Shown here in pieces: positions 16,911 to 32,917 of a stretch of 32,917 nt of DNA. Positions within the stretch are counted from its first letter, which is position 1, and every line of letters begins with the position of its first letter. The DNA is from Mycolicibacterium chubuense. GTDB taxonomy: Bacteria > Actinomycetota > Actinomycetes > Mycobacteriales > Mycobacteriaceae. The translations under genes were made by a program, and so were the position numbers. Under the pieces are notes generated by a model. That model searched no databases. It was not told the origin of the DNA and saw only the letters and a program-made list of their open reading frames with translations. The stretch is from positions 1-32,917 of the forward strand of contig NZ_JYNX01000095.1 in assembly GCF_001044255.1 (NCBI RefSeq). The letters are read 5' to 3'.

Positions 16911-16920
16911 GCCCACCGGC

Positions 16921-16968: not shown

Positions 16969-18273
16969 ATGACCACCACGACTCCCGATCGCGACCGGGC
17001 CGTCGACGTCGCGCGAATCGGCGCCCTCGTCGTCGTGATGTTCGGGCACTGCGCGCTGCTGCTCGCGACCGTCGACGAGCGCGGCGTGCACATCGGCAAT
17101 CTGATCGGCGCGCTGCCCGCCATCGCGCCGGTCACCTGGCTCGCGCAGGTGATGCCGTTGTTCTTCCTGGCCGGCGGCGCGGCGGGCGCCTACGGGTACC
17201 GCGCGGCGACTCCGTGGGGCGCCTGGCTGTTCACCCGGGCGCAGCGGTTGTGCCGACCGGTGTTCGTCTACCTCGCCGCCTGGACGGCGGGCCTCATCGT
17301 GATCCGCGTGCTGCTCGGGGCGGAGTCGGCTGACCGGGTGGGGCGCGAGAGCGTGGCACTGCTGTGGTTCCTCGGGGTTTACCTCCTGGCGCTCGCCTTC
17401 GTGCCGGTGCTGACGCGGCTGAGGACCGGCCGCGCCGTGGGGACCGTGCTCGCCGGCCTGCTGGTCGCGGCCGCTCTCGCTGACGCAGCCCGCTTCGCGA
17501 GCGGCGATCCGCTGGCGGGCGTCTCCAACTTCCTGGCGGTCTGGTTGATCCCGGTGCTCTTCGGCGTGGCCTACGCCCGTCGGCTCCTCGACCTCCGCGT
17601 CGCCGCGGTGATCGGGGCCTGCGCCTTCGCCGCGCAGGTGCTGCTCGCCGCGGTCGGACCCTATGACGTCTCCCTGGTGGTGACCGGCGCCGAGCACGTC
17701 TCCAACGTGTCGCCGCCGACACTGCTGCTCGCGCTGCACTGCACGTGGATGTCGTGCGCGTTCGTGCTCGGCGCCCGGGGGCTGCAGCGCTGGGCGCGGC
17801 GACCGCGGGTGTGGCGCGTGGTGGCCGCGGGCAACGCCGGGGCGATGACGCTGTACCTCTGGCACATCCCGGCGATCGCGGTGGCGACGTTCGGCCTGAA
17901 CGCCGTCGGTTTGGACGCCTACGACGTGCACGCCCCGAACTTCTGGACGCTGCTGGCCCTGCGCGGCGTCGTGTTCGCGGCCGTGATGAGTGTGTTCTTC
18001 GTGCTGCTCTCCCCGCTGGAGCACCGCCGGTTGCCGTGGTGGGACGCGCCCGTGCGGGCGCGCGGCGCGCGCGCCGCTGTCACCGGGGCACTGGTCTGCG
18101 CGGCCGGGGTGGCGCTCGTGCTCACCGCGAAATTCGGGCTCGCCGGATGGGGGTGGGTCGCGCTCGCGGCGTTCGTGGCGATGCTCGTCGGTGCGCGGGT
18201 CTGCGCGCCGGCCGGCGGCACGCCCTCCGGTGCCGCCCCGGAGCCACGATCAGTCGGCCTTCGGCAGCCGTGA
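16969..18273 (+). CDS. Acyltransferase-3-family membrane protein
   Basis: A 434-aa protein with about ten membrane helices. It begins RDRAVDVARIGALVVVMFGH, the characteristic R-x-x-x-D-x-x-R...H start of acyltransferase 3 (AT3/OafA-type) proteins, where the His is the likely catalytic residue. Later helices include AMTLYLWHIPAIAVATFGLN, the typical YLWH motif. AT3 proteins transfer acyl groups to sugars, peptidoglycan, lipids or antibiotics across the membrane. The acceptor here is unknown. It starts 58 bp after the DUF7159 gene on the same strand, and its stop sits next to the furA promoter region. Confidence 0.8.
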   Translation: MTTTTPDRDRAVDVARIGALVVVMFGHCALLLATVDERGVHIGNLIGALPAIAPVTWLAQVMPLFFLAGGAAGAYGYRAATPWGAWLFTRAQRLCRPVFVYLAAWTAGLIVIRVLLGAESADRVGRESVALLWFLGVYLLALAFVPVLTRLRTGRAVGTVLAGLLVAAALADAARFASGDPLAGVSNFLAVWLIPVLFGVAYARRLLDLRVAAVIGACAFAAQVLLAAVGPYDVSLVVTGAEHVSNVSPPTLLLALHCTWMSCAFVLGARGLQRWARRPRVWRVVAAGNAGAMTLYLWHIPAIAVATFGLNAVGLDAYDVHAPNFWTLLALRGVVFAAVMSVFFVLLSPLEHRRLPWWDAPVRARGARAAVTGALVCAAGVALVLTAKFGLAGWGWVALAAFVAMLVGARVCAPAGGTPSGAAPEPRSVGLRQP

Positions 18274-18281
18274 TCACGTGA
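18274..18281. promoter_or_regulatory. TCACGTGA palindrome with GTGAC repeats upstream of furA
   Basis: TCACGTGA directly follows the acyltransferase stop, and GTGAC occurs three times between 18278 and 18295. The cluster is upstream of the putative furA promoter and could bind a regulator; no specific factor is assigned. Confidence 0.2.
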
Positions 18282-18312
18282 CGTGACGCTGTGACGGATT
18301 GTGGCCAACTGA

Positions 18313-18323
18313 TTTTCGGAAAA
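18313..18323. promoter_or_regulatory. Candidate FurA operator
   Basis: TTTTCGGAAAA, a 5-bp inverted repeat around one base, lies 38 bp upstream of furA inside the AT-rich run GATTTTCGGAAAAACTTGAT. Mycobacterial FurA is known to repress its own promoter by binding an AT-rich site just upstream of furA, so this is the obvious candidate. Confidence 0.5.
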
Positions 18324-18361
18324 ACTTGATCCCATCCAGAAAAGGGACCAAGATCGAAGCG

Positions 18362-18799
18362 ATGGCCGACGATCCTCAGTACGCGGACGCGCTCAAGTCA
18401 GTGGGGCTGCGGGTGACCCGCCCCCGGATGGCGGTGATGCACGCCGTCGAGCACCACCCGCACGCCGACACCGAGGTCATCATCAACGCCGCGCGGGACG
18501 AACAACCCGACATCTCCCGCCAGACCGTCTACGACGCCCTCAACGCGTTGACCGCGACCGGTCTGGTGCGGCGCATCCAGCCCGCCGGCCACCTGGCCCG
18601 CTACGAGTCCCGCGTCAACGACAACCACCACCACATCGTGTGCCGATCCTGCGGTGTGGTCGCCGACGTGGACTGCGCCGTGGGTGAGGCGCCCTGCCTG
18701 ACCGCGTCGGACGATCTCGGGTTCGACGTCGACGAGGCCGAGGTCATCTTCTGGGGCCTGTGCCCCGACTGCACCCTGCAGACCCGATCACATCCGTGA
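18362..18799 (+). CDS. furA: FurA, Fur-family redox/iron repressor
   Basis: A 145-aa Fur-family repressor. The N-terminal winged helix includes GLRVTRPRMAVMHAVEHHPH and ISRQTVYDALNALT. The dimerisation domain carries the metal-binding set NDNHHHIVCRSCG and a second CxxC, GLCPDC. In mycobacteria FurA represses furA and katG and is relieved by oxidative stress. The gene lies 33 bp before katG on the same strand, the conserved furA-katG operon. ATG 18362 is used; a longer frame from 18299 would cover the promoter. The nearest purine-rich site (AAAAGGGA) is rather far upstream (14-15 bases), so initiation may be weak or leaderless. Confidence 0.93.
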   Translation: MADDPQYADALKSVGLRVTRPRMAVMHAVEHHPHADTEVIINAARDEQPDISRQTVYDALNALTATGLVRRIQPAGHLARYESRVNDNHHHIVCRSCGVVADVDCAVGEAPCLTASDDLGFDVDEAEVIFWGLCPDCTLQTRSHP

Positions 18800-18832
18800 T
18801 CAGCTCGTCATCCACCACCGAAAGGGAATGTT

Positions 18833-21079
18833 GTGTCCTCTGATACGTCCGATGCCCGCCCGCCGCATTCAGACACCAAGACCCACAGCCACAGCGAGAG
18901 CGAGAACCCGGTCATCGACGCGCCGGAGCCCAAAGCCCATGCGCCGCTGACGAACAAGGACTGGTGGCCCGAGCAGGTCGACGTCTCGGTGCTGCACAAG
19001 CAGAACGCCAAGGGCAACCCGCTCGGCGAGGACTTCGACTACGCGACCGAGTTCGCCAAGCTCGACGTCGAGGCGTTCAAGCGCGACGTCATCGACGTCG
19101 TCACCACCTCGCAGGACTGGTGGCCCGCCGACTACGGCAGCTACGCCGGCCTGTTCATCCGGATGAGCTGGCACGCCGCCGGCACCTACCGCATCTACGA
19201 CGGCCGCGGCGGCGCGGGACAGGGTTCCCAGCGGTTCGCCCCCCTCAACAGCTGGCCCGACAACGCCAACCTGGACAAGGCCCGCCGGCTGCTGTGGCCG
19301 ATCAAGCGCAAGTACGGCAACAAGATCTCCTGGGCCGACCTGATCGCCTTCGCCGGCAACGCCGCGCTGGAGTCCGCCGGATTCCAGACTTTCGGCTTCG
19401 CATTCGGCCGCGAGGACATCTTCGAGCCCGAGGAGATGCTGTGGGGCCAGGAGGACACCTGGCTGGGCACCGACAAGCGGTACGGCGGAACCAACGACAG
19501 CGACCGCAAGCTGGCCGAGCCGTTCGGTGCCACCACCATGGGCCTGATCTACGTGAATCCCGAAGGGCCGGAAGGCAAGCCGGATCCGCTGGCGGCGGCA
19601 CACGACATCCGCGAGACGTTCGGCCGGATGGCGATGAACGACGAGGAGACCGCCGCGCTGATCGTCGGCGGTCACACGCTGGGCAAGACCCACGGCGCCG
19701 GACCGGACGAGGGGATGGGACCCGAGCCCGAGGGCGCTCCGATCGAGGATCAGGGCCTGGGCTGGAAGTGCCCGTTCGGCTCCGGTAAGGGCCCCGACAC
19801 CATCACCAGCGGTCTGGAGGTGGTGTGGACCACCACGCCGACGACGTGGAGCAACGCCTACCTCGAGTTGCTGTACGGCTACGAGTGGGAGCTGACCAAG
19901 AGTCCGGCCGGCGCCTGGCAGTTCGAGGCCAAGGACGCCGAGGCGATCATCCCCGATCCGTTCGGCGGACCGCCGCGCAAGCCCACGATGCTGGTCACCG
20001 ACGTCTCGATGCGCGTCGACCCGATCTACGGCCAGATCACCCGGCGCTGGCTCGACCATCCCGAGGAGATGAACGAGGCCTTCGCCAAGGCCTGGTACAA
20101 GCTGATGCACCGTGACATGGGGCCCGTCAGCCGGTACCTCGGACCGTGGGTCGCCGAGCCGCAGGTCTGGCAGGACCCGGTTCCGGCCGTCGACCACGAG
20201 CTGGTCGACGAGGCCGACGTCGCGTCGCTGAAGAGCACGATCCTGTCCTCGGGGCTGTCAGTGCCCCAGCTGGTCAAGACGGCATGGGCGGCGGCCGCCA
20301 GCTTCCGCGGTACCGACAAGCGCGGCGGCGCCAACGGGGCACGGCTGCGCCTGGAGCCCCAGCGCAGCTGGGAGGTCAACGAGCCGTCCGAGCTGGACAG
20401 GGTGCTGCCTGTACTGGAGAAGGTCCAGCAGGACTTCAACGCCTCGGCGTCGGGCGGCAAGAAGATCTCGCTGGCCGACGTGATCGTGCTGGCGGGTTCC
20501 GCGGCGGTCGAGAAGGCCGCCAAGGATGCGGGTTACGAGATCGACGTGCACTTCGCCCCCGGACGCACCGACGCGTCGCAGGAGGACACCGACGTCGAAT
20601 CGTTCGCGGTGCTCGAGACCAAGGCCGACGGGTTCCGCAACTACGCGCGTCCCGGGGACAAGACGCCGCAGGAGCAGCTGCTGGTGGACAAGGCGTACTT
20701 CCTGGACCTGACCGCACCGGAGATGACCGCCCTCGTCGGCGGCCTGCGGGTCATCGGTGCCAACCACGGCGGCAGCAAGCACGGCGTCTTCACCCAGACG
20801 CCGGGCGCGCTGACCAACGACTTCTTCACCAATCTGCTCGACATGAGCACGCAGTGGAAGCCGTCGCAGGCGACCGAGAACGTCTACGAGGGATTCGACC
20901 GGGCGACCGGTGACCTGAAGTGGACGGCCACGGCGAACGACCTGGTGTTCGGTTCGAACTCCGTGCTGCGCGCCATCGCCGAGGTGTACGCGCAGGACGA
21001 CAGCCGGGGCAAGTTCGTCGAGGACTTCGTCGCAGCCTGGGTCAAGGTGATGAACAACGACCGGTTCGACCTGCGCTGA
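18833..21079 (+). CDS. katG: Catalase-peroxidase KatG
   Basis: A 748-aa bifunctional heme enzyme that removes H2O2 and peroxides and, in mycobacteria, activates the prodrug isoniazid. The distal heme residues are present ([11 protein letters not shown]: Arg110, Trp113, His114). The partners for the Met-Tyr-Trp crosslink are present too (Tyr240, Met266), as is the proximal His281 in [11 protein letters not shown]. The residue equivalent to M. tuberculosis Ser315 is Ser326, wild-type Ser. The second, heme-free peroxidase repeat fills the C-terminal half. The N-terminus is His/Ser-rich and a few residues longer than in M. tuberculosis. GTG 18833 follows AAAGGGA. It is the second gene of the furA-katG operon and ends 2 bp before the opposing STAS gene's stop. 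Confidence 0.97.
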
Positions 21080-21081: not shown

Positions 21082-21834
21082 TCAGAGGCGGTTCTCAGGA
21101 CCGAGTAACGCCCACACCGTCTTCCCCCCCGCCGTGGGGCTGCAGCCCCAGGCACGGCTGACCGCCGTGACCACGGCGAGGCCGGAGACGGTGTGGGCGC
21201 CGGTCTTCGGCGCCTCCTGACGTACCGCCGGCCGGGGATCGGAGTCACTGACCGCGACGGTCACGACGTCGTCGACGGTCTCCACGAGCACCACCGGCCT
21301 GCTCAGGGTGTGCGTGAGCACGTTCTCGACGAACACCGTCACCACCGTCGACGCGGTGAGGACCATGTCCGAGAGCGCCCAGGCCGTGAGGCAGTCGGCG
21401 GTGAATTGGCGCGCGGCGCGCATGCTCGACGGCGTCGCGTCGAACTGGGTCTGGGCGCGCCGGCGGCGTCGGTGATCGTCGCCGACCGCGGCGACCGCGG
21501 CCGCCCGGTCACCGAGGACGGGCACATACCGCGTGACCCCGCTGCGCCGGATCCGCGCGCGCCCGACTTCGCTGTCGCAGACGAGCAGAACGGGAACGGC
21601 GGGCCAGGTCAGGACATGCCAGCGCGCGCTGGTGAACGCGGTCCACGCGCTCACCGCGGGCGCGTCGAGCCGGCTGACGTCGACGATGACCGCCGTCAGC
21701 CCCGTCACCGCGGCCTCGATCACGCTGTCGCGTATCCGGCGGTAGGTCCGGCTGTCCAACGTGCCGGTGATCGCCATGACCGTGACACCCGACGTTCGGC
21801 CCGCCGAGATCACCAGGTCATGGTGGTCAGTCAT
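21082..21834 (-). CDS. STAS + HATPase fusion, sigma-factor-type regulator
   Basis: A 250-aa protein joining two partner-switching domains. Residues of about 10-115 are a STAS domain (VTVMAITGTLDSRTYRRIRD, then VIVDVSRLDAPAVSAW), as in anti-anti-sigma factors. Residues of about 140-250 are a HATPase_c_2 (RsbW-like) domain, ending GLAVVTAVSRAWG...PTAGGKTVWALL, the usual C-terminal signature of anti-sigma kinases. In the N-box (VFVENVLTHT) the Asn and His align, but the Glu normally four residues before the Asn appears to be Val, so kinase activity may be weak or lost. It diverges from the glycosyltransferase block (167 bp between starts). The target is unknown; a SigF-like pathway is the natural guess. 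Confidence 0.75.
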   Translation of the reverse strand: MTDHHDLVISAGRTSGVTVMAITGTLDSRTYRRIRDSVIEAAVTGLTAVIVDVSRLDAPAVSAWTAFTSARWHVLTWPAVPVLLVCDSEVGRARIRRSGVTRYVPVLGDRAAAVAAVGDDHRRRRRAQTQFDATPSSMRAARQFTADCLTAWALSDMVLTASTVVTVFVENVLTHTLSRPVVLVETVDDVVTVAVSDSDPRPAVRQEAPKTGAHTVSGLAVVTAVSRAWGCSPTAGGKTVWALLGPENRL

Positions 21835-22001: not shown

Positions 22002-23141
22002 ATGAGGCTGGCGATAGTGGGCGATCTGCCCGGCCGCGTCCCGATGGCCCCGGGCACCTACGACCTGGCGAGCCTGGCGGCAGCGCTGACACGGCGGGGG
22101 CACGACGTGCGCGTGCTCACCGCCTCGCGGGTCGATGCCGGCGTGGCGAGCGGCGGCTACCGTGTGCTTCCCCTTCCGGGGGAATCGGCGGACGACAGAA
22201 GCGCCGAGGATCTGATGCCGATGATCGGCGACATCGGCCGGTTCCTGATCGACGACTGGAGCGGGGACCCGCCCGACGCCGTGCACTGCCACGGCTGGGC
22301 GTACGGCATGGCCGCGCAGCTGGCCGCCAAGCAGCGACCGGTGCCGATCGTGCAGGCCTTCCATCACCTCGGGGACGCGCGGGCGACGCACAGCACCGGC
22401 GTCAAGCTGGAGACGCTGCTGGCGCGCAACGCCACCCTGGTGACCACGGCGTGCAACGACGAGATGCACGAGGTCATCCGGAGGGGATGCCCCCGCGCCC
22501 GGGTGAGCGTGGTGCCCTCCGGCGTCGACGTCGACGCCCACAGCGTGGACGGCGACGTCGCACCACGCGGTCCAGAGCGCCATCGCATTGTCGGCCTCGC
22601 ACAGGACTTTTCACCCGCGCAGGGCCTTCATCAGCTACTTGGGAACCTGCCGTCGCTGCCGGCCGCCGACCTGGTGCTCATCGGCGACGGCGGTACCGAC
22701 CACGACAACCGGCGGGTGCGCGTCATCGCGGAACGTCTCGGGGTGAGCGGTCGCGTGCAGACCGTCACCACGACCGACGACCGTGAGATCGCCTCCTGGT
22801 TGCGGTCCGCCGACGTCGCGGTCTGCCCGGCGCCGTACGACCCGGACACGCGAACGGTGTTGCGGGCGATGGCCTGTGGTGCCGCGGTGATCGCCACCGA
22901 GACCGGTGGACCGCGGGACGCGGTCATCTCCGAGGTGACGGGGTTGCTGATACCCGCGGACAACACGGTCGCGCTGAGCCGCTCAGTGCGCTCGATGCTG
23001 GCGCACAACGTGCTGCGGCAGGGGATGGGGCTAGCCGGGCGCGCCCGCGCGCGCTCGCGCTACTCGTGGGACCGTGTCGCCACCGATGCCGAGGTGGTGT
23101 ACGACGCGGCGGCGCGGCGTGCCACCACGGTCACGGCCTGA
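22002..23141 (+). CDS. GT4-family glycosyltransferase (EX7E degenerate)
   Basis: A 379-aa GT-B-fold glycosyltransferase. The N-domain opens with LAIVGDLPGRVPMAPGTYDL and the C-domain holds LVLIGDGGTDHDNRRVRV and SADVAVCPAPYDPDTRTVLR. The block AMACGAAVIATETGGPRD is typical of GT4 enzymes, but the EX7E catalytic/donor-binding pair that should precede it appears as Asp...Arg, so both Glu are replaced. The enzyme may be inactive, regulatory, or use another arrangement. ATG 22002 is preferred over the upstream TTG 21963 because family similarity starts there. It is the first gene of the rightward sugar locus. Confidence 0.8.
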   Translation: MRLAIVGDLPGRVPMAPGTYDLASLAAALTRRGHDVRVLTASRVDAGVASGGYRVLPLPGESADDRSAEDLMPMIGDIGRFLIDDWSGDPPDAVHCHGWAYGMAAQLAAKQRPVPIVQAFHHLGDARATHSTGVKLETLLARNATLVTTACNDEMHEVIRRGCPRARVSVVPSGVDVDAHSVDGDVAPRGPERHRIVGLAQDFSPAQGLHQLLGNLPSLPAADLVLIGDGGTDHDNRRVRVIAERLGVSGRVQTVTTTDDREIASWLRSADVAVCPAPYDPDTRTVLRAMACGAAVIATETGGPRDAVISEVTGLLIPADNTVALSRSVRSMLAHNVLRQGMGLAGRARARSRYSWDRVATDAEVVYDAAARRATTVTA

Positions 23142-23279: not shown

Positions 23280-24257
23280 ATGCCGTCGCTTCTGGTACCT
23301 CGCAACGTGCTGATCTGGCACGTGCACGGTTCGTGGACGGAGTCGTTCGTGGCGGGTAGGCACCGCTATCTGATCCCGGTCGACGCCGACCGCGGCGCCG
23401 ACGGGCGCGGGCTGGCCGGTCGAACATGGCCGCAGGCCAGCGAGATTCGTGTCGAGAACCTGGCCGACGCCGACATCGACCTGGTGGTGCTGCAGCGGCC
23501 CGCCGACCTCGAACTCGCCACCCGGCTTCTCGGCCGCAGGCCCGGCGCCGACGTCCCCGCGGTGTACGTCGAGCACAATGCGCCGCGGCCGTACGCCGTC
23601 GACAGCATGCATCCCCTGGCCGAGCGTTCGGACATCCCCCTGGTACACGTCACCGAGTTCAACGAGCTGATGTGGGACAACGGATCCGCGCCGACCCGGG
23701 TCATCGGCCACGGGGTGGCCGACCGGGGCAGCCTGTACACCGGAGAGATCGCGGCCGCGGCGGCGATGATGAACGAGCCGGTGCGGCGCTGGCGCACGGT
23801 CGGAGCCGACCTGCTGGCGCCGTTGAGCCGGTACGCGCCGATCGACGTGTGGGGCATGGGCACCGAGGGCCTCCACGACGACCCCCGCTGCGCCGGTGCG
23901 GTTTCCGGCCGGGGTGACATCTCGGGTTCGGCGGTGCTCGACGAGGTGGCGCGCCGCAGGGTGTATCTGCACACCGCCCGGTGGACGTCGCTGGGACTGT
24001 CGCTGCTGGAGGCGATGTGCGCGGGCATGCCCGTGGTGGCTGTCGCCTCGACGATGGCCCCGCTCGCGGTGCCACCCGAAGCGGGTGTGGTCAGTGCCGA
24101 TCGATCGGTGCTCGGCGACGCGCTCGCACGCTTCGTCTCCGACCCCGCCGCCGCGGAAGTCGCGGGGAAAGCGGCACGCGAACACGCCCTGGCCCACTTC
24201 GGCCTCGATCGCTTCCACGCCGATTGGGACCGCCTGATCGAGGAGGTGTGCGAATGA
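23280..24257 (+). CDS. GT4-like glycosyltransferase, second of three
   Basis: A 325-aa predicted glycosyltransferase starting MPSLLVPRNVLIWHVHGSW. The N-terminal half contains YVEHNAPRPYAVDSMHPLAE and VTEFNELMWDNG. The C-terminal half has VYLHTARWTSLGLSLLEAMC and AGMPVVAVAST, a GT4-type donor-site region. The second Glu of EX7E is present (LLEAM), but the first is Thr. The protein is shorter than usual for the family. ATG 23280 lies just downstream of the SigF-like promoter. Its stop overlaps the next start (ATGA), and AGGAGG inside its 3' end serves the next gene. Substrates are unknown. Confidence 0.75.
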   Translation: MPSLLVPRNVLIWHVHGSWTESFVAGRHRYLIPVDADRGADGRGLAGRTWPQASEIRVENLADADIDLVVLQRPADLELATRLLGRRPGADVPAVYVEHNAPRPYAVDSMHPLAERSDIPLVHVTEFNELMWDNGSAPTRVIGHGVADRGSLYTGEIAAAAAMMNEPVRRWRTVGADLLAPLSRYAPIDVWGMGTEGLHDDPRCAGAVSGRGDISGSAVLDEVARRRVYLHTARWTSLGLSLLEAMCAGMPVVAVASTMAPLAVPPEAGVVSADRSVLGDALARFVSDPAAAEVAGKAAREHALAHFGLDRFHADWDRLIEEVCE

Positions 24258-25465
24258 GCGCGCAGAAGTCACGACGCAGGATCGCGATGGTATCCGAACA
24301 CGCCAGCCCCCTGGCGTTGCTCGGCGGCGTCGACGCAGGCGGTCAGAACGTGGCGGTCGCGGAGTTGTCGGCCGCATTGGCGGCACAGGGACACGAGGTC
24401 GTGGTGTACACCCGGCGCGACGACACCGACCTGCTCGACCGCGTCGACACCGAACACGGATACACGGTGGTGCACGTGCCGGCGGGACCGCCGAGAAAGC
24501 TCCCCAAAGACGATCTGCTGCAATACATGCCGGCATTCGGGGACTTCCTGGCCGAGCAGTGGGAGCAATGGCGGCCCGACGTGGCGCACGCGCACTTCTG
24601 GATGTCGGGACTGGCCACTCTGCGGGCCGCCCGCCGCCGCGGCGTCCCGGTGGTGCAGACCTTCCATGCGCTCGGCGTGGTCAAGCGGCGGCATCAGGGC
24701 CGCGACGACACCAGTCCCGACGAGCGCATCCGGTTGGAGACCGAACTGGCGCGCAAGGTCGACTGGGTCGCGGCCACCTGCACCGACGAGGTCGCCGAAC
24801 TGCGGCGGATGGGGCGCGACCAGTCCGCGATGTCCGTGGTGCCGTGCGGGGTGAACCCGACCGAGTTCTGCCACATCGGGCCCGCCGCGACCCGCGGAAA
24901 GCCGCAGCGCATCGTCTCGGTCGGCCGGTTGGTGCCGCGCAAGGGATTCGAGACGGTCATCCGCGCGATGCCGCAGCTGCCCACTGCCGAGCTCGTGATC
25001 GTCGGGGGCCCGGACAAATCCGAGCTGGACTCCGACGCCGAGGCTCAGCGCCTCAATGCCGTCGCCGGCCAGTGCGGGGTGGCCGATCGAGTGCACCTGT
25101 ACGGGGCGATCGCGCGCGACGAGATGCCGATGCTGCTGCGATCCGCCGACGTCGTCGCGGCCACCCCGTGGTACGAGCCGTTCGGCATCGTCCCCCTCGA
25201 GGCGATGGCGTGCGGGGTACCGGTCGTCGCGTCGGCGGTGGGCGGCATGCTCGACACGGTCGTCGACGAGGGGACGGGGCGCCTCGTGCCACCGCGCGAC
25301 CCGCGGCGCTGCGCCGACGCGATCACCCCGATCCTGGCCGACCGAAACCTGCGCGCCGCACTCGGCCGCGCGGGCCGCGCGCGGGTCCAGCAGCGCTACT
25401 CGTGGCAGCGCGTTGCCGAGGAGACGGCAGCGGTCTACGACCGCATGGCGGGGTCGGTGTCGTGA
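24254..25465 (+). CDS. GT4-family glycosyltransferase, canonical
   Basis: A 403-aa GT-B glycosyltransferase. It has the full set of GT4 landmarks: GGVDAGGQNVAVAELSAALA near the N-terminus, a middle region VVPCGVNPTEFCHIGP, SVGRLVPRKGFETVIRAMPQ, and WYEPFGIVPLEAMACGVPVV with an intact EX7E pair. It resembles the MshA/sucrose-synthase-like group of actinobacterial GT4 enzymes that use nucleotide-activated hexoses. Start ATG 24254 follows AGGAGG (24241-24246) and overlaps the previous stop by 4 bp, so it is translationally coupled to the gene before it. It ends 4 bp from the stop of the opposing GT2 gene. Confidence 0.88.
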   Translation: MSAQKSRRRIAMVSEHASPLALLGGVDAGGQNVAVAELSAALAAQGHEVVVYTRRDDTDLLDRVDTEHGYTVVHVPAGPPRKLPKDDLLQYMPAFGDFLAEQWEQWRPDVAHAHFWMSGLATLRAARRRGVPVVQTFHALGVVKRRHQGRDDTSPDERIRLETELARKVDWVAATCTDEVAELRRMGRDQSAMSVVPCGVNPTEFCHIGPAATRGKPQRIVSVGRLVPRKGFETVIRAMPQLPTAELVIVGGPDKSELDSDAEAQRLNAVAGQCGVADRVHLYGAIARDEMPMLLRSADVVAATPWYEPFGIVPLEAMACGVPVVASAVGGMLDTVVDEGTGRLVPPRDPRRCADAITPILADRNLRAALGRAGRARVQQRYSWQRVAEETAAVYDRMAGSVS

Positions 25466-25469: not shown

Positions 25470-26357
25470 TCAGGCGTTTTCGAGCACGCGCAGGCACCGC
25501 TCGGTGTCGGCCGGCAGCCGGTGGCGGGCGGCGATCACCGCCGGCAGCGCGCGCAGCGCCTCGCCCAGCGCGGCCGTGTGGTCACGGTCGCCCGCGGCGG
25601 CCCGCACGAACGTCGCGCCGGCGCGCACGCAGTGCCACAGCGGCCGCCGCAGCCAGGTGGTCAGCACCGCGTTGCGCATCGTCCGAGCATCCTGCGCGGC
25701 CGTGGTGCCCCGGGTGGCCGACGGCTGGTGGAACGCCGTGAGCCGTTCGCAGAAGCACAGGTCCCAGCCGTGGGCAGCCAGGTCCCAGGCCAGCAGGGTC
25801 TCCTCGCCGCGGAAGTGGATGATCGGCGAGAACCCGCCGACCGCTTCGAACGCCGACGCCCGCACGATAGAGGAGCACGCCAGGAATCCCAGGACGGACG
25901 GTCCCGGCAGCGCCGGGTCGTGTCCCAGCGGGCTGGTCGCCAGGTCGGCCACGATGGGGTCCTCCCGCTCGCCCGGCATCACCAGCGTGCGCGCGGCGAG
26001 CACCGCCAGCGTGGGGTACGCGTCGAACAGCGTTTCGGCGAGCCCGATCGATTCCGGGTCCCACCAGGAATCGTCGTCGCAGAACGCGACGTACGGCGTC
26101 GACGCCTCGGCCACCCCGACATTGCGGCCGACCGCACCGAGGTTCTCGTCGAGCTCGATCACCGTCAACCGGCCTGCCGAGCCGGCGGCGATGCGTCGCG
26201 CCATGGCCACCGAGTCGTCCTCGGAGGCGTTGTCCACCAGAATGATCGGAGAGTTCGTCGTGTCGAGCAGCAGACGCAGCACCGTGGCCAACTCGGCGGA
26301 GCGGTTCCGGCTGGCGATGACGAACGACGTGCGGGCCCCTCGCGGCTCTGAAGTCAT
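25470..26357 (-). CDS. GT2-family glycosyltransferase
   Basis: A 295-aa GT-A-fold glycosyltransferase and the only minus-strand gene inside the sugar locus. The donor-binding start SFVIASRNRSAELATVL is followed by IILVDNASEDD and the metal-binding AFCDDDSWWDPESI. The acceptor-side region FRGEETLLAWDLAAHGW and AFHQPSATR fits GT2 enzymes that act on a sugar acceptor. No membrane helices. Its ATG (26355-26357, read on the minus strand) overlaps the ATG of the divergent SDR gene in the shared CATG, leaving no gap between them. Its stop converges on the GT4 gene before it. Confidence 0.85.
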   Translation of the reverse strand: MTSEPRGARTSFVIASRNRSAELATVLRLLLDTTNSPIILVDNASEDDSVAMARRIAAGSAGRLTVIELDENLGAVGRNVGVAEASTPYVAFCDDDSWWDPESIGLAETLFDAYPTLAVLAARTLVMPGEREDPIVADLATSPLGHDPALPGPSVLGFLACSSIVRASAFEAVGGFSPIIHFRGEETLLAWDLAAHGWDLCFCERLTAFHQPSATRGTTAAQDARTMRNAVLTTWLRRPLWHCVRAGATFVRAAAGDRDHTAALGEALRALPAVIAARHRLPADTERCLRVLENA

Positions 26358-27363
26358 GGCCGATGGTGCTACCCGGAGCGGCCCGGCCGAAACGCGGTTC
26401 GGCCGGGTCCTGGTCACCGGCGGTGAGGGCTTCCTCGGCCGGCACCTGTGCGCCACGCTGGCCGCCGCCGGAAGGCAGGTGGTGTGTGTGGACAATCTGT
26501 CCACCAGCGCCCCGCGGTTCGCCGACCTGCCGTCCGGTGTTCAGTTCGTGCAGCACGACATCACCGCGGCACTGCCGCAGCCGTGGGCCGACACGGACTT
26601 CGACGCGATCTTCCATCTGGCCTCGCCGGCGTCGCCGCCCGACTACCTGCGGCTGCCACTGCAGACGCTGCGCACCGGCGCGCTGGGCACCACGACCGTG
26701 CTCGACCTGGCCGACCGCTGCGGGGCGCGACTGGTGCTGGCGTCGACCAGCGAGGTGTACGGCGACCCTCTGCAGCATCCGCAACGCGAAAGCTACTGGG
26801 GCAACGTCAACCCCATCGGTCCGCGCAGCGTCTACGACGAGGCGAAACGGTACGCCGAGGCGCTCGCGTTCGCCTATCACCGCGACCACGGCACCGACAT
26901 CGGCGTGGCGCGGATCTTCAACACCTACGGGCCCGGGATGCGCCCCGACGACGGGCGGGCCGTGCCCACCTTCTGCCAGCAGGCGTTGAGCGGGTCGCCA
27001 CTGACCGTGGCCGGTGACGGCACCCAGACCCGCTCGCTGTGCTACGTCGACGACACCGTCGCCGGACTGATCGCGCTGGCGGCACACCCGGTGACCGGAC
27101 CGGTCAACATCGGCAATCCCGTCGAACTGCCGGTGCGCGAGATCGCAGAGATCATCCGCGATCTGGCCGGCGCGGACGTGCCGATCGAGCACCGTCCTGC
27201 CGTCACCGACGACCCACGGCGGCGATGCCCCGACATCACCGAGGCCCGCGAACTGCTCGGCTGGGAGCCGGCCGTCAGCTACCTCGACGGGCTCGCCGCG
27301 ACCGTCGACTGGTTCCGCGACGTGCTCGCGGCCGCCGACGTCCCGACCGCCCAGGCCACCTGA
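26356..27363 (+). CDS. SDR-family UDP-glucuronate decarboxylase-like enzyme
   Basis: A 335-aa extended short-chain dehydrogenase/reductase. The NAD-binding motif is VTGGEGFLGRHL (GxxGxxG). The catalytic region reads LASTSEVYGDPLQHPQ, then YWGNVNPIGPRSVYDEAKR, with the Tyr-x3-Lys pair (YDEAK). That combination, including the WGNVNPIGPR segment, is characteristic of UDP-glucuronate decarboxylases (UDP-xylose synthases), so the likely product is UDP-xylose. Relatives include dTDP-hexose dehydratases and HldD-type epimerases, but those lack this segment. ATG 26356 overlaps the divergent GT2 start. It ends 15 bp before the carbamoyltransferase gene, in which AGGAGG serves as ribosome-binding site. 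Confidence 0.85.
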   Translation: MADGATRSGPAETRFGRVLVTGGEGFLGRHLCATLAAAGRQVVCVDNLSTSAPRFADLPSGVQFVQHDITAALPQPWADTDFDAIFHLASPASPPDYLRLPLQTLRTGALGTTTVLDLADRCGARLVLASTSEVYGDPLQHPQRESYWGNVNPIGPRSVYDEAKRYAEALAFAYHRDHGTDIGVARIFNTYGPGMRPDDGRAVPTFCQQALSGSPLTVAGDGTQTRSLCYVDDTVAGLIALAAHPVTGPVNIGNPVELPVREIAEIIRDLAGADVPIEHRPAVTDDPRRRCPDITEARELLGWEPAVSYLDGLAATVDWFRDVLAAADVPTAQAT

Positions 27364-27378
27364 ACGAAGGAGGAAACG

Positions 27379-29037
27379 ATGCGAATCCTCGGTATCAACG
27401 CGGTCTTTCACGACCCTGCCGCCGCCCTGGTGGTCGACGGCAGAATCGTCGCCGCCGCCGAAGAGGAACGGTTCTCCCGCCGCAAGCACGGCAAGCAGGC
27501 GGTGCCGTTCTCCACGTGGGAACTGCCCGTCGCCGCAGCGAAGTGGTGCCTCGCGGAGGCCGGTATCGACCCCGGCGACCTCGACGCCGTCGGCTACTCC
27601 TACGACCCGGCGCTGATGGCCGACGACTCCGGGCAGACCGAGGGTCTGGACCGCGACTGGGAGTACCTGCGAACCCTCTACGCGCAGCGGGCGCCCCGCT
27701 TCCTGGCCACGGCGCTGCCGGGCCTGGACCCGGCGGTGGTGCGGCACGTCCGCCACCACGTCGCCCATGCCGCCTCCACCGCACTGGCGTCGCCGTACCC
27801 CGACAGTGCCGTGCTCGTCGTCGACGGCCGCGGCGAGCGCACCTCGATGCTCGCCGGGGTGTACCGCGACCACAAGCTCGATGTGCTCGCCACCCAGGAG
27901 CTTCCACACTCGCTCGGGCTGCTCTACGAAAGCCTCACCGAACACCTGGGTTTCACTCGGTCCAGCGACGAGTACAAGGTCATGGCGATGGGCTCCTACG
28001 GCGAGCCTCGATTCATCGAGGCGATGCGCGAGCGCGTCTACGCCTGCCCGGACGGCGGCTTCCGCACCGAGCCCATCACCTGGACGGATTTCGCGCCCGT
28101 GCGCGTCGCCGCCACGGGCGAGCACGCCACGGCGCTGGCCCGGCCCGAACCGGTGCACGCCGACCTGGCGTGCAGTGTGCAGCAGGTCGTCGAAGAGGTA
28201 CTGCTCGACCTGGTGTCCTGGCTGCGCGAGCGGGTGGACACCGACAGCCTGTGCCTGGCCGGCGGAGTCGCCCTCAATTGCGTTGCGAACACCCGCATTC
28301 ACGCCGAAAGCGGCTTCGACCACATCTGGGTGCAGCCGGCCGCGGGCGATTCGGGAACCGCGCTGGGGGCCGCGCTGGCCGTCGCGGCCGACGAAGGGGA
28401 GCCGATCACCCCGATGAGCTCGGCGCAGCTGGGGCGGGGGTGGAGCGACGCCGACATCCAGGCCGTCCTCGAGCGCGCCGCGGTGCGCTACGAGCGTCCC
28501 GACGACCTGGCGCAGACCGTCGGTGAGCTGCTGGCCGACAACCAGCTGGTGGGCTGGTTCCAGGGCCGTGCGGAATTCGGCCCCAGGGCACTGGGCGGCC
28601 GCTCCCTGCTGGCGGACCCGCGGCGGCTGGAGAACCTCGAACGCCTCAACGTCGTCAAGGGCCGCGAGCAGTTCCGCCCGGTCGCGCCCATGGTGCTGGC
28701 CGAGCGCGCCGCGGAGATCTTCGGCCGCGGACCGCTCCCGAGCCCGTACATGCTGTTCGTGCACGACGTCGCCGAGGCGTGGCGCGAGCGCATCCCCGCG
28801 GTCACCCACGTCGACGGCACCGCACGCGTGCAGACCGTCGACGACAGCCTTCCGCTGCTGCACGCGACCATCGAGCACTTCGCCCGGCGGACCGGCGTGC
28901 CCGTGCTGGTCAACACCAGCTTCAACACGGCGGGCCGGCCGATGGTCGACAGCCCCGTCGACGCACTGGAGTGCTTCGGGAGCGCGCCGATCGACGTTCT
29001 CGTGCTGGGCCCCTTTCTGATCCGGCGGCCGCGATGA
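27379..29037 (+). CDS. NodU/CmcH-family O-carbamoyltransferase
   Basis: A 552-aa enzyme that transfers a carbamoyl group from carbamoyl phosphate, via carbamoyl-adenylate, to a hydroxyl on a sugar or natural product. The HypF/Kae1-like N-domain has HVRHHVAHAAST (metal-binding HxxxH region), DEYKVMAMGSYGEP and GGVALNCVAN. The C-terminal domain begins near QGRAEFGPRALGGRSLLADP and ends with VNTSFN. Known members decorate Nod factors, cephamycins and other glycosides. The start ATG 27379 follows AGGAGG. Its stop overlaps the GT2-GmhB start by 4 bp, so carbamoylation is likely a step on the same product. Confidence 0.92.
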   Translation: MRILGINAVFHDPAAALVVDGRIVAAAEEERFSRRKHGKQAVPFSTWELPVAAAKWCLAEAGIDPGDLDAVGYSYDPALMADDSGQTEGLDRDWEYLRTLYAQRAPRFLATALPGLDPAVVRHVRHHVAHAASTALASPYPDSAVLVVDGRGERTSMLAGVYRDHKLDVLATQELPHSLGLLYESLTEHLGFTRSSDEYKVMAMGSYGEPRFIEAMRERVYACPDGGFRTEPITWTDFAPVRVAATGEHATALARPEPVHADLACSVQQVVEEVLLDLVSWLRERVDTDSLCLAGGVALNCVANTRIHAESGFDHIWVQPAAGDSGTALGAALAVAADEGEPITPMSSAQLGRGWSDADIQAVLERAAVRYERPDDLAQTVGELLADNQLVGWFQGRAEFGPRALGGRSLLADPRRLENLERLNVVKGREQFRPVAPMVLAERAAEIFGRGPLPSPYMLFVHDVAEAWRERIPAVTHVDGTARVQTVDDSLPLLHATIEHFARRTGVPVLVNTSFNTAGRPMVDSPVDALECFGSAPIDVLVLGPFLIRRPR

Positions 29038-30524
29038 CGCTCGACGTCACCGTCGTGGTCCCGACCATCGGCCGGGACTCCCTGCAGCGGTTGATCACCG
29101 CGCTGGACCGGGGCGAGGGACCGCGGCCCGCCCAGGTGATCGTCGTCGACGACCGCCCCGCGCCACAGACCCTCGAGCTGCGCGGCGATCTGACGGTCAA
29201 GGTGCTCGAGAGCGGCGGCCGCGGACCCGCGGCCGCCCGCAACGTCGGCTGGCGAGCCGCCGACACCCGGTGGGTGTGCTTCCTCGACGACGACGTCATG
29301 CCCACGCCGACATGGCTTTCCGCGCTGGAGGCCGATCTCGCGGCCGCCGACGCTGCCGGTGCGGCGGGAACGCAGGGTCGTCTGGAGGTGCCCCGCGAGA
29401 CCACCGGCAGGCCCACCGACGACGAGCAGCGCACGCTGCGGCTGGCCACCGCCCAGTGGATCACCGCCGACATGGCCTACCGGCGTGACGTGCTCGTCGA
29501 GGTCGGCGGCTTCGACGCACGCTTCCCGCGCGCCTACCGCGAGGACTCCGACATCGCCCTGCGTATCACATCCGCGGGCCACCGCATCGTTGTCGGCGAC
29601 CGGCGCTGCGAGCACCCCGTCGCGCCGGCGACCTGGCGGACGTCGCTGCGGGTGCAGGCCGGCAACCGCGACAACGCGCTGATGCGGCGCAAGTTCGGCC
29701 CCCGCTGGCGAGCACGCATCGGCGAGGGCAACGGACGGCTGCCCGCGCACACCGCCACCACCGCGGCGGCGGCCGGGGCGCTGCTCGCGCTCGCCGCGCG
29801 CCGGCCCCGGGCGGCGTCGGTCGCCGGGCTGGCCTGGACGGCGCTGGCCGCCGATTTCACGCTCCGGCGCTACCGCGGGGGATCCCGCACCGCCGCCGAG
29901 CTCAGCCGGATCATGCTGAGCAGCATCATGATTCCACCGCTGGCGGTCGGGCACCGGCTGATCGGGGAGTGGCAGCACCGCGCCGCAGGCGCGGAACCGC
30001 CGCTGGCGGTGCTGCTGGACCGCGACGACACCCTGATCCAGGACGGCCCCTACCTGAACGATCCGCGCGGCGTGGTGTCGATGCCCGGAGCCCGGCGCGC
30101 ACTGGACCGGTTGCGGGACCGGGGGCTGCTGCTGGCCATCGTCACCAACCAGTCGGGCGTGGCGCGCGGGCTGATCAGCCCGGAGCAGCTGGGTGCGGTG
30201 AACGCCGAGGTGGCGGGTCAGCTCGGGCCGTTCCACAGCTGGCAGGTGTGCCTGCACGGGGAGGACGACGGCTGCGCCTGCCGCAAACCCGCGCCGGGCA
30301 TGGTGGTGGCCGCGGCCGCCGCCCTCGGGGTTCCGCCGCAACGGTGCGTGCTGATCGGTGACACCGGTGGCGACGTGCAGGCCGCCCTGAACGCGGGGGC
30401 GCGGGCCATCCTGGTGCCCACCGACCGCACCCGCGTCGAGGAGATCTCCGCGGCCCGTTCGCACCCGCGCGCCGCCGTCGCACCCACGCTGACCGCCGCC
30501 GTCGACATGGTGCTGCGCGCATGA
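29034..30524 (+). CDS. Fusion of GT2 glycosyltransferase and GmhB-type heptose bisphosphate phosphatase
   Basis: A 496-aa two-domain protein. Residues of about 1-235 are a GT2 domain: VVVPTIGRDSLQRL, VIVVDDRP, CFLDDDVMPTPTWL (DxD) and YREDSDIALRI. Residues of about 240-315 are an Ala/Leu-rich linker with two hydrophobic stretches, possibly membrane-associated. Residues of about 322-496 are a HAD phosphatase of the GmhB type: LLDRDDTL with Asp329 and Asp331, VTNQSGVARG, IGDTGGDV, and the zinc-binding set Cys406, His408, Cys414, Cys416 (CLHGEDDGCACRKPAPGM). GmhB removes the 7-phosphate of heptose 1,7-bisphosphate. Overlaps both neighbours by 4 bp. Confidence 0.88.
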   Translation: MTLDVTVVVPTIGRDSLQRLITALDRGEGPRPAQVIVVDDRPAPQTLELRGDLTVKVLESGGRGPAAARNVGWRAADTRWVCFLDDDVMPTPTWLSALEADLAAADAAGAAGTQGRLEVPRETTGRPTDDEQRTLRLATAQWITADMAYRRDVLVEVGGFDARFPRAYREDSDIALRITSAGHRIVVGDRRCEHPVAPATWRTSLRVQAGNRDNALMRRKFGPRWRARIGEGNGRLPAHTATTAAAAGALLALAARRPRAASVAGLAWTALAADFTLRRYRGGSRTAAELSRIMLSSIMIPPLAVGHRLIGEWQHRAAGAEPPLAVLLDRDDTLIQDGPYLNDPRGVVSMPGARRALDRLRDRGLLLAIVTNQSGVARGLISPEQLGAVNAEVAGQLGPFHSWQVCLHGEDDGCACRKPAPGMVVAAAAALGVPPQRCVLIGDTGGDVQAALNAGARAILVPTDRTRVEEISAARSHPRAAVAPTLTAAVDMVLRA

Positions 30525-31549
30525 GCACCGCACTGGTCGCCCGCCTCGACAGCGCCGGCGACGTCCTCATCACCGGGCCGGCCATCCGGGCCGTGGCCCA
30601 GCGGCACGACCGGGTCGTGATGCTCGCCGGCCCCCGCGGCCGGGCCGCCGCCGAGCTGCTGCCCGGCGTCGACGAGATCATCGAATGGCAGGCGCCCTGG
30701 GTCGATTTCGACTCTCCGGAACTCACCGCGGCCCACGCCGACGACCTGATCAAGCGCCTGCGCGACACCGCGCCGGATCGCGCCTACATCTTCACCTCGT
30801 TCCACCAGTCACCGCTGCCGCTGGCGCTGCTGTGCCGGATGTCCGACATCGGCTGGGTCGGCGCGATCAGCGTCGACTACCCGGGCAGCCTGCTCGACCT
30901 GCGCCACCAGGTGCCCGACGGGGTACCGGAGCCGCTGCGGGCGCTGTCGCTGGCCCAGGCGGCGGGGTGCAGGCTGCCCGATGGGGACACCGGGGCGCTG
31001 CGGGTCACCGGCGTCGGGTCGATCGCGGCGCAGACGAGGCAGCGGATCGGGTCGGACGACTTCGTCGTCTTCCACCCCGGAGCGGCCGTGCCGGCCCGCC
31101 GGCCCGGCGCCGAGCGCGCCCGCGCGATGGTCGCCGCCCTGACCGCCGCCGGGCACCGCGTGGTGGTCACCGGCGGACCCGACGAACGCGATCTGACCGC
31201 CGAGGTGGCCGCCGGGCGCGCGGTCGACCTGGGCGGGCTCACCACGTTCACCGAGCTGGCCGCGGTGCTCGCCGCCGCCCGGGTGGTGGTCGCGCCCAAC
31301 ACCGGCACCGCACACCTGGCGGCCGCGGTGGGCACGCCGATCGTGTCGCTGTTCGCCCCGGTGGTGCCCGCCTCGCAGTGGGCGCCCTACGGCGTGCCGG
31401 TCACCGTCCTCGGCGACCAGCAGGCGCCGTGCCGGGCGACCCGGGCGCGGACCTGCCCGCTGGACCGCCACACGTGCCTCGACGACATCACCGACAGCGC
31501 GCTGCTGGAGGCAGTGCACGACACAGCGCACCGAGGAGGATCCCGATGA
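30521..31549 (+). CDS. GT9-family heptosyltransferase
   Basis: A 342-aa GT-B enzyme of the ADP-heptose:LPS heptosyltransferase family (WaaC/WaaF/WaaQ-like). Landmarks are ALVARLDSAGDVLITGPAIR at the N-terminus, FVVFHPGAAVPARRP in the donor domain, VVTGGPDERDLT and VVAPNTGTAHLAAAVGTPIV. The last of these is the GT9 donor-binding motif. It probably transfers heptose, or a closely related sugar, from ADP-heptose onto a glycan or lipid acceptor. Actinobacteria have no LPS, so the acceptor must be something else. Overlaps the previous and following genes by 4 bp. The C-terminal region has three Cys near CRATRARTCPLDRHTC. Confidence 0.88.
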   Translation: MSTALVARLDSAGDVLITGPAIRAVAQRHDRVVMLAGPRGRAAAELLPGVDEIIEWQAPWVDFDSPELTAAHADDLIKRLRDTAPDRAYIFTSFHQSPLPLALLCRMSDIGWVGAISVDYPGSLLDLRHQVPDGVPEPLRALSLAQAAGCRLPDGDTGALRVTGVGSIAAQTRQRIGSDDFVVFHPGAAVPARRPGAERARAMVAALTAAGHRVVVTGGPDERDLTAEVAAGRAVDLGGLTTFTELAAVLAAARVVVAPNTGTAHLAAAVGTPIVSLFAPVVPASQWAPYGVPVTVLGDQQAPCRATRARTCPLDRHTCLDDITDSALLEAVHDTAHRGGSR

Positions 31550-32115
31550 TCGCAACGCATTTCGACGACCTGATCGGCGCCGTACGTCGCACCAGCGGTC
31601 ACATCGACCAGGTGCATGCCTGGGGCCTGCACCTGGCCGACGTGCTGACCGGCGACGGCCGGCTGCTGGCCTGCGGCAACGGCGGAAGTGCCGCCGAAGC
31701 CCAGCATCTGACCGCGGAACTGGTCGGCCGCTTCAAGGACGAGCGACGACCGCTGTCGGCCATCGCGCTGCACGCCGACACCTCCGCGTTGACCGCGATC
31801 GTCAACGACTACGGCGGCGACGAGATCTTCGCCCGCGGCGTCCGGGCGCACGGCCGCCCCGGCGACGTCCTGGTGGCCCTGTCGACGAGCGGGACCAGCC
31901 ACAACGTGCTGACCGCGGTCAAGGCCGCCCACGAGATCGGCATGACCACCTGGGCGCTGACCGGGCCCGCGCCCAATCCGCTGGCCGCCACATGCGCGGA
32001 GGCCATCTGTGTGGAGGCACCGTCGACCGCGACCGTGCAGGAGGTGCACCTGCTCCTCGTCCACGCGCTGTGCATGGCGGTCGACGAGCGCATCCTCGGG
32101 CCGGTGCGCTCATGA
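31546..32115 (+). CDS. gmhA: SIS-domain sedoheptulose 7-phosphate isomerase
   Basis: A 189-aa SIS-family isomerase that converts sedoheptulose 7-phosphate to D-glycero-D-manno-heptose 7-phosphate, the first step of heptose synthesis. The phosphosugar site is LLACGNGGSAAEAQHLTAEL with the catalytic Glu of this helix; LSTSGTSHNVLTAVKAA is the second SIS loop, and QEVHLLLVHALC holds the catalytic His. Length matches GmhA (about 190-200 aa). GAGGAGG lies 6 bases before ATG 31546, and the start overlaps the GT9 stop by 4 bp. It is followed, again with a 4-bp overlap, by the HldE-type kinase. Confidence 0.9.
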   Translation: MIATHFDDLIGAVRRTSGHIDQVHAWGLHLADVLTGDGRLLACGNGGSAAEAQHLTAELVGRFKDERRPLSAIALHADTSALTAIVNDYGGDEIFARGVRAHGRPGDVLVALSTSGTSHNVLTAVKAAHEIGMTTWALTGPAPNPLAATCAEAICVEAPSTATVQEVHLLLVHALCMAVDERILGPVRS

Positions 32116-32917
32116 CCAGCACCCCGCTGGTCGTTGTCGGCGACGCGTTGCTGGACATCGACATCGACGGCAGCGCAACACGACTCAGCCCGGAAGCGCC
32201 CGTGCCGGTGGTCGACGTCGAACGGGGATGGCACCGGCCCGGCGGCGCCGGTCTGGCCGCGGTGCTGGCCGCCCGCACCCACGACGACGTCGTGCTGATC
32301 ACCGGCATCGCCGACGACGCGGCAGGCAGGCAACTCGCCGAGCTGCTGGCCTCCTCGGGCGTGCGGGTGGTCGCGCTGCCGATGCGCGGCTCCACGGTCA
32401 GCAAGACCCGGGTGCGTGCGGGCGGGCAGTCCGTGTTGCGCATCGACCGCGGGGACGCGGCACCGGTGCCGGGCCCGCTGCCGCAGGCGGCCGCCGAGGT
32501 GCTGGCGCGCGCCGGCGCGATCTGCGTGGCGGACTACGGCAGGGGAGTGGCGGCGCTTCCGGCGCTGCGGGACGCACTGCGCACCGCCGCCGCGCACACC
32601 CCGGTGGTGTGGGACCCGCACCCGCGCGGTGCCGAACCCGTCGCCGGCTGCCGCCTGGTGACGCCGAACGAGACTGAGGCGCACCACTTCTGCGGAGGCA
32701 ACCGGGTCACCGGTGAGCTGCTGCGGGAGCGGTGGGACGCCGACGCGGTCTGCGTGACGCTGGGTGCCCGCGGGGCGCGGGTGTACGGCGCCGACGGCAC
32801 CCGAACCCACGTCGGCACCCCGGCGTTGGCCGCCGGATCCGTGCGTGAGGACACCTGCGGCGCCGGCGACCGGTTCGCCGTCGCCGTCACCGCCGCGCTC
32901 GCCGAGGGCGCGGACAC
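32112..32917 (+). CDS. hldE: HldE-type heptose 7-phosphate kinase (partial)
   Basis: The open frame runs for 268 codons and leaves the right edge without a stop. It is a PfkB/ribokinase-fold kinase with the HldE/RfaE signature LSPEAPVPVV directly after VVGDALLDIDID, then RPGGAGLAA, VTPNETEA and the catalytic DTCGAGD. The enzyme phosphorylates D-glycero-D-manno-heptose 7-phosphate at C1. Whether the protein also has the C-terminal adenylyltransferase domain of bifunctional HldE cannot be seen. Use of a PfkB kinase points to the ADP-heptose route. It differs from the GHMP-type HddA of the GDP-heptose route, which other mycobacterial heptose genes encode. ATG 32112 overlaps the gmhA stop by 4 bp. 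Confidence 0.88.
   Translation, partial: MTSTPLVVVGDALLDIDIDGSATRLSPEAPVPVVDVERGWHRPGGAGLAAVLAARTHDDVVLITGIADDAAGRQLAELLASSGVRVVALPMRGSTVSKTRVRAGGQSVLRIDRGDAAPVPGPLPQAAAEVLARAGAICVADYGRGVAALPALRDALRTAAAHTPVVWDPHPRGAEPVAGCRLVTPNETEAHHFCGGNRVTGELLRERWDADAVCVTLGARGARVYGADGTRTHVGTPALAAGSVREDTCGAGDRFAVAVTAALAEGAD

Follow-up and report, generated by a model that had tools for sequence, protein, structure and literature searches.

The closest described system to the gene cluster considered here is the cwg ("cell wall glycan") operon SCO6179-SCO6190 of Streptomyces coelicolor, which has been listed among the sigma-E targets of Streptomyces since 2002, as cited in the consulted part of PMC6767563, and is handled as one in excerpts of PMC13011467 and PMC3902916. 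One of its glycosyltransferase genes, SCO6185, appears in an excerpt of PMC4630627 as a stably expressed reference gene, and in the section of PMC5839063 available to us SCO6182 is annotated as a dehydratase (cwgD), SCO6186 as a putative phosphoheptose isomerase (cwgH), and SCO6187 as a bifunctional synthase/transferase (cwgI). The stretch analyzed here, called the window, is the entire 32,917-base contig C95 (NZ_JYNX01000095.1) of the 5.95 Mb genome (G000) of Mycolicibacterium chubuense, and at its right-hand end it carries a run of sugar-nucleotide and glycosyltransferase genes that, by gene families, completeness of the set, and conserved order, is the ortholog of the cwg operon. The earlier note on this DNA, made from its letters alone, had taken the system for an undescribed one; its Streptomyces counterpart is in print.

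Reading frames together with Pfam and NCBIfam scans place in 26356-32917, as the earlier note had proposed, a coupled run of a short-chain dehydrogenase/reductase (SDR), a NodU-type carbamoyltransferase, a fusion of a glycosyltransferase family 2 (GT2) domain with a GmhB phosphatase domain, a GT9 enzyme, GmhA, and an HldE-type kinase, with 4-base overlaps between successive genes from the carbamoyltransferase onward (29034/29037, 30521/30524, 31546/31549, and 32112/32115). The HldE kinase gene is truncated by the end of C95. That note had suggested looking rightward for the adenylyltransferase domain, and contig C25 of the same genome has it at its end: residues 1-268 of the complete 465-residue HldE of a relative, genome G054, match C95, while residues 303-465 match G000:C25:183322-183810 on the minus strand, 2 bases from the contig end, so that about 34 HldE residues are absent between the two contigs. 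The gene is followed on the same strand of C25 by a short SDR (SDR2), a second GT9 (GT9b), and a UDP-glucose dehydrogenase, and the unrelated downstream kinase that would have told against a heptose pathway does not occur. In G054 the whole run sits on one 5.7 Mb contig, and its fusion protein is 91% identical to that of the window. Start sites are approximate, the genes in the compared loci having been called by a codon-score caller. The comparison covered 20 loci of the genus (from 18 of 38 matching genomes plus two named records) and 55 other loci at least 18 kb long, in which losses at locus edges score as absences. The order carbamoyltransferase, GT2-GmhB, GT9, GmhA, HldE, SDR2, GT9b is kept in 19 of the 20 loci of the genus (window locus excluded), and this conservation excludes a chance assembly.

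The Streptomyces side of the comparison is provided by a Streptomyces coelicoflavus locus (L164), in which our own gene caller finds twelve co-directional genes at 7206-20302 in the order SDR, carbamoyltransferase, GT2, GmhB, GT9, GT4, GT4, GmhA, HldE, GT9, GT2, GT2. The published annotations of SCO6182, SCO6186, and SCO6187 agree with genes 4, 8, and 9 of this cluster, and proteins of the window and G054 match the S. coelicoflavus copy at 42-65% identity; orthology was thus measured against S. coelicoflavus, with the S. coelicolor side resting on published annotations and on the promoter. In L164 the sigma-E promoter of cwg, as given in PMC6767563, is matched at 7016-7044, just upstream of the cluster, with 3 mismatches in 29 positions, and it is also found just upstream of the first cluster gene in three further loci, L136 (3 mismatches), L128 (5), and L148 (6). 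The Streptomyces loci L128 and L148 are reduced clusters, keeping GT2, GmhB, and the cwg-type promoter with no GmhA or HldE match. Allowing up to 8 mismatches, the published promoter is not matched in the window.

The mycobacterial cluster and S. coelicolor cwg hold in common the SDR, carbamoyltransferase, GT2, GmhB, GT9, two GT4 enzymes, GmhA, HldE, a second GT9, and a further GT2, and they share the order SDR1-CarT-GT2-GmhB-GT9a and GmhA-HldE-(SDR2)-GT9b. Unlike cwg, the mycobacterial loci encode GT2 and GmhB in a single frame (19 of the 19 loci having both), place the GT4 pair upstream, and have one divergent GT2 where Streptomyces has two in tandem; they also add the short SDR and usually the UDP-glucose dehydrogenase, neither of which was found in L164.

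GmhA, HldE, and GmhB together cover the four-step route that leads from sedoheptulose 7-phosphate to a nucleoside diphosphate (NDP)-heptose. We take the steps to run in the order given in the accessible part of PMC11461863. At the gene level this route is complete in the mycobacterial cluster, with predicted substrates, and all four heptose domains occur in 19/20 loci of the genus and in 46/55 other loci. The HldE adenylyltransferase domain, measured on G054, scores 185.5 bits against an NCBIfam cut-off for exact function of 181.5 bits, and it is the only domain of the heptose run above such a cut-off; the closest PDB relatives of the HldE parts are 5x9q and 4e84. GmhA, of the cwg type, is the one protein of the genome that matches TIGR00441 at E <= 0.001. 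Counted on trimmed match segments, whose ends may be missing, the motifs that we take to carry the catalytic residues of these enzymes are widely kept: the DRDxT, CxH..CxCRKP, and GDxxxD motifs of GmhB in 32/32 fusions (a strict TNQSG in 18/32), the GmhA motifs in 64/77 and 68/77 relatives, and GxFDxxHxGH and KGGDY of HldE in 67/74 and 64/74. The GxSTT-like motif near the HldE C terminus reads SSS in 17/18 and STS in 1/18 Mycobacterium rows, versus STT in 43/56 other rows; this difference, seen at L043:13322-13810(-) and in its relatives, could bear on nucleotide choice. For HldD, which the earlier note had listed among the genes to look for, the genome yields 7 TIGR02197 matches, all SDRs and none reaching the cut-off of 274.6 bits (the best scores 121.8), from which a D,D-heptose donor is predicted and no L,D form is expected. 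A lipopolysaccharide (LPS)-type L,D-heptose branch was dropped on the same result.

The identification of the first SDR as UDP-xylose synthase (UXS)-like, made in the earlier note, is borne out by its nearest solved structures, which are all UXS enzymes (2b69, human UXS1; 4gll; 4m55; 4lk3) aligned over the full length at 312.6-316.4 bits, versus 5.1e-36 and 127.9 bits for the next different PDB family. In NCBIfam, which lists no UXS model, the best match is to dTDP-glucose dehydratase, at 117.7 bits and below its cut-off of 365.1. Together with the UDP-glucose dehydrogenase, the SDR predicts a supply of UDP-xylose. The carbamoyltransferase, likewise named correctly in that note, has both Carbam_trans_N and Carbam_trans_C domains over its full length, and its near-full-length PDB alignments are to the novobiocin and GdmN enzymes, with TobZ entries also matching. 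Both GT9 enzymes are clear members of their family.

We consider it probable that the locus, as the mycobacterial cwg ortholog, serves to assemble and modify a glycan or glycolipid of the cell envelope. GmhA would convert sedoheptulose 7-phosphate to D,D-heptose 7-phosphate, the HldE kinase domain would add a 1-phosphate, the GmhB domain would take off the 7-phosphate, and the HldE nucleotidyltransferase domain would form NDP-D,D-heptose, probably ADP-heptose. In parallel, the UDP-glucose dehydrogenase would provide UDP-glucuronate and the UXS-like SDR would turn it into UDP-xylose. The two GT9 and several GT4 and GT2 enzymes could then assemble an oligosaccharide, on which the carbamoyltransferase would cap a hydroxyl, and the product would be exported by machinery encoded elsewhere. 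We infer each substrate, the order of the sugars, the carbamoylated residue, the envelope location, and the use of export machinery from other loci; the carbamoylated heptose product named in the earlier note is a prediction of the same kind.

Several observations weigh against this reading. GmhA, GmhB, the HldE kinase domain, and both GT9 enzymes score below their NCBIfam equivalog cut-offs, the GT9 enzymes below every heptosyltransferase equivalog listed, and their substrates could differ. No chemistry ties either cwg or the mycobacterial cluster to any glycan, and the cell wall glycan product of Streptomyces cwg is itself a prediction in the parts of PMC6767563 and PMC5839063 at hand. As judged from search listings, no publication was found that connects a heptose glycan with cwg or with a mycobacterial cluster, apart from the cwgH annotation in PMC5839063, and the one paper matching both "cwg" and "heptose" as whole words is apparently on Coxiella GDP-mannose. 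The published promoter is matched within 8 mismatches upstream of the cluster in only 4 of 15 Streptomyces loci, 8-mismatch matches elsewhere in L043, L095, and L149 are at chance level, and no sigma-E control has been shown for the mycobacterial locus. Outside the genus the UDP-glucose dehydrogenase is present in 9/55 loci, the UXS-like SDR in 38/55, and the carbamoyltransferase in 44/55, so that xylose and carbamoyl groups need not be universal. Finally, among the 12 gene families that recur beside the cluster in at least 5 of 68 loci (two Pfam-scanned, ten judged by eye), we recognized no transporter or exporter, the latter sought at the earlier note's suggestion, and no flippase, polymerase, ligase, or priming transferase, and four PF02397 priming-type transferases are located elsewhere in the genome. 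A polysaccharide is the weakest version of the reading on this point, and a glycolipid or small glycan is possible.

The sub-threshold scores would be explained if the GmhA, HldE, and GmhB homologues had been repurposed, acting on another heptose or a hexose, or using UTP or CTP instead of ATP, and the SSS form of the C-terminal HldE motif in Mycobacterium would fit such a shift. We regard this as unlikely, given that the adenylyltransferase domain scores above the cut-off set for it, that the GmhB, GmhA, and HldE motifs are retained as counted above, and that the four domains co-occur in nearly all loci of the genus and in most others. A rather unlikely alternative is that the locus is a secondary-metabolite cluster that places heptose, pentose, and carbamoyl groups on a secreted antibiotic-like molecule, comparable to septacidin or the carbamoylated aminoglycosides. 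Antibiotic O-carbamoyltransferases are indeed the nearest PDB entries to the carbamoyltransferase, and septacidin is an actinomycete product using NDP-heptose (according to the portion of the commentary PMC11461863 available), but no synthase, aminotransferase, or transporter was recognized, mostly by eye, in the recurring neighboring families, the core genes are class-wide and inherited largely genus by genus, and the Streptomyces copy is controlled by a cell-envelope stress sigma factor. That GT9, GmhA, and HldE are LPS-core families might also suggest that a pathway resembling that of the LPS core was acquired from Gram-negative bacteria. This we find highly improbable: among the best 80 named loci all but two are actinobacterial by title, the tree described below, which holds no Gram-negative homologues, follows actinomycete genera for the most part, and HldD is missing above its cut-off.

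The distribution across mycobacteria, a comparison the earlier note had called for, was taken from 148 genomes of the window's genus. The GT2-GmhB fusion (at E <= 1e-20) and HldE are each found in 38 of them, both together in 36, the fusion alone in 2 (G073, and G121 with 41% identity over the GmhB part), HldE alone in 2 (G034, 37% identity; G100, a C-terminal piece), and neither in 108. Divergent HldE-like proteins occur at G034:C1:5382605-5384005 (37%, no fusion match) and G060:C1:3067429-3068823 (40%). The G073 copy (L059, 8967-16701) retains the SDR, GT2, and two GT4 genes, has a carbamoyltransferase match of 58 residues and no heptose gene match, and is by this remnant content a decayed cluster. 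The analysis does not support a system special to a mycobacterium. Relatives are spread through the class, and a search with the fusion at E <= 1e-30 gives matches in 169/298 genomes from the order and 87/345 from the class, in overlapping samples and with partial single-domain matches counted. A scan of the named collection confirmed at least 591 of 595 candidate stretches, and the best 80 that were kept carry actinobacterial titles except for L105 and L139, cluster pieces on contigs titled as Methylomirabilota and Eremiobacterota metagenome-assembled genomes, where wrong binning is possible. The carbamoyltransferase, GT2, GmhB, GmhA, and both HldE halves are all present in 19/20 loci of the genus and 36/55 others. 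Spread on plasmids was considered and dropped, as carriage is rare: 3 of 72,556 plasmid records match, covering 63-64% of the query, and one of these records is 11.85 Mb long.

Five concatenated proteins from the 79 loci having at least four of them went into a quick maximum-likelihood tree, with support from the Shimodaira-Hasegawa-like approximate likelihood ratio test (SH-aLRT) only. The tree is ordered largely by genus, and a branch with an SH-aLRT of 100 sets apart each of four groups: the 19 Mycobacterium rows, 12 rows of Streptomyces, 5 of Actinomadura, and 4 of Nocardia. Of the Mycobacterium rows, 17 are genomes of the window's genus, to which we give that name because the named Mycobacterium loci L085 and L086 fall inside their clade. 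By this tree the cluster and cwg share common descent, as opposed to chance assembly, and the uneven occurrence within the genus probably reflects vertical descent with loss for the most part. Some transfer is likely, because one Rhodococcus locus is placed with those of Kibdelosporangium, Lentzea, and Crossiella.

Table. Genes of the cluster in the window and of its continuation on contig C25 of the same genome.
Feature	Position	Strand	Evidence and remarks
GT4a, GT4-family glycosyltransferase	22002..23141	+	PF13579 5.4e-23, PF00534 3.3e-20; open reading frame (ORF) open from 21963
GT4b, GT4-like glycosyltransferase, cwgF-like	23307..24257	+	PF00534 1.1e-8; ORF open from 23196, start by codon score
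GT4c, GT4-family, MshA-like, cwgG-like	24254..25465	+	PF00534 3e-40; TIGR03449 228.5 bits, below cut-off 462.5
GT2x, GT2-family, divergent from SDR, cwgK/L-like	25470..26357	-	PF00535 1.3e-18; start at 26357 placed by eye at an internal ATG, ORF open to 26504
UDP-glucuronate decarboxylase (UDP-xylose synthase)-like SDR, cwgA-like	26356..27363	+	PDB 2b69 E 2.5e-93
NodU/CmcH O-carbamoyltransferase, cwgB-like	27379..29037	+	PF02543 1e-53, PF16861 1.4e-64; PDB 9s2t 9.7e-95
GT2+GmhB fusion gene	29034-30524	+	PF00535 3.8e-15; NF006506 5e-30
GT2 domain of fusion, cwgC-like	29034..29987	+	PF00535 3.8e-15; alignment of 32 fusions
GmhB-type HAD phosphatase domain of fusion, cwgD-like	29988..30524	+	NF006506 5e-30; PDB 3l8h, 4pnh
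GT9 (heptosyltransferase family), cwgE-like	30521..31549	+	PF01075 2.2e-22; PDB 3tov 1.2e-7, HepII 1psw 8.3e-6
GmhA sedoheptulose-7-phosphate isomerase, cwgH-like	31546..32115	+	NF010546 8.5e-58; PDB 5i01 8.1e-48
HldE N-terminal PfkB kinase domain, cwgI-like, cut by contig end	32112..32917	+	TIGR02198 3.8e-37
HldE adenylyltransferase half, outside window	G000:C25:183319-183810	-	
SDR2, outside window	C25 182605-183315	-	
GT9b, outside window	C25 181655-182635	-	
UDP-glucose dehydrogenase, outside window	C25 180354-181658	-	PDB 4a7p 2.1e-90

The glycosyltransferases listed at the left of the cluster vary in their occurrence. Among the loci of the order comparison GT4a is assigned in three, those of the window, G054, and G019 (L046), while GT4b is present in 18/20 loci of the genus and 49/55 others, GT4c in 18/20 and 53/55, and GT2x in 16/20 and 26/55. 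The ATG of the SDR on the plus strand and the internal ATG of the divergent GT2 on the minus strand overlap in the palindrome CATG at 26355-26358; this overlap was dropped as a general feature, as relatives have other start spacings and it may be an annotation effect. Of the recurring neighbors, an aldehyde dehydrogenase lies beside 18/68 loci. A family resembling polysaccharide pyruvyl transferases lies beside 14/68, which we count in favor of a glycan; its one scanned representative scores 35.8 bits over 38 residues. A SigF/SigB-like sigma factor (assigned by eye; family f3, 10 members) is often found near the cluster with an anti-sigma-like protein, as at L043:6776-7564 (C25:176776-177564) and on the downstream side of several of the loci L047-L061. 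In the window a STAS-domain protein (21085-21834, minus strand) adjoins the cluster, and a Fur-family regulator and a KatG catalase-peroxidase, both read by eye, lie upstream at 18362-21079.

What the analysis adds is a reading of cwg as a complete NDP-heptose, UDP-xylose, and carbamoyl pathway, its presence in about a quarter of the sampled mycobacteria, and the missing piece of the contig-split cluster. The heptose, xylose, and carbamoyl reading makes the cwg product a testable chemical prediction. In a wider form, to which we lean slightly against committing, the Actinomycetes class, including about a quarter of the mycobacterial species sampled, may share a conserved envelope glycan with D,D-heptose, often with xylose, and with a carbamoyl cap; through its NDP-heptose precursor these Gram-positive organisms would be sources of ALPK1 agonists, and its loss in many mycobacterial lineages could reflect changed selection on the surface. 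The heptose in this predicted surface sugar is of a type best known from Gram-negative bacteria. Should NDP-heptose be produced in mycobacteria, ALPK1, an innate sensor, would gain relevance for these organisms, and their envelope could have a new component.

The Gram-negative LPS ADP-heptose pathway (GmhA, HldE, GmhB, HldD, and WaaC/F) has its isomerase, kinase, phosphatase, nucleotidyltransferase, and GT9 families in common with the mycobacterial run, whereas the latter is without an HldD above the cut-off and includes the carbamoyltransferase and the UXS-like SDR; to our knowledge no lipid A or Kdo acceptor is to be expected for it. Tang et al. (2024), as reported in the part of the commentary PMC11461863 on which we rely, found functional heptose nucleotidyltransferases to be widespread and NDP-heptoses to activate ALPK1, findings that lower the surprise of the mycobacterial copies and raise their stakes; cwg, mycobacteria, and this cluster go unmentioned in that part of the commentary. 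Genes of a GDP-heptose pathway, including gmhA, are described for M. tuberculosis in the consulted portion of PMC7705670, and there, too, a mycobacterial GmhA feeds an activated heptose. The M. tuberculosis pathway belongs to the alpha/GDP branch, however, whereas the cluster of the window belongs by its predicted enzymes to the HldE-type branch, with a single gmhA match in the genome, of the cwg type.

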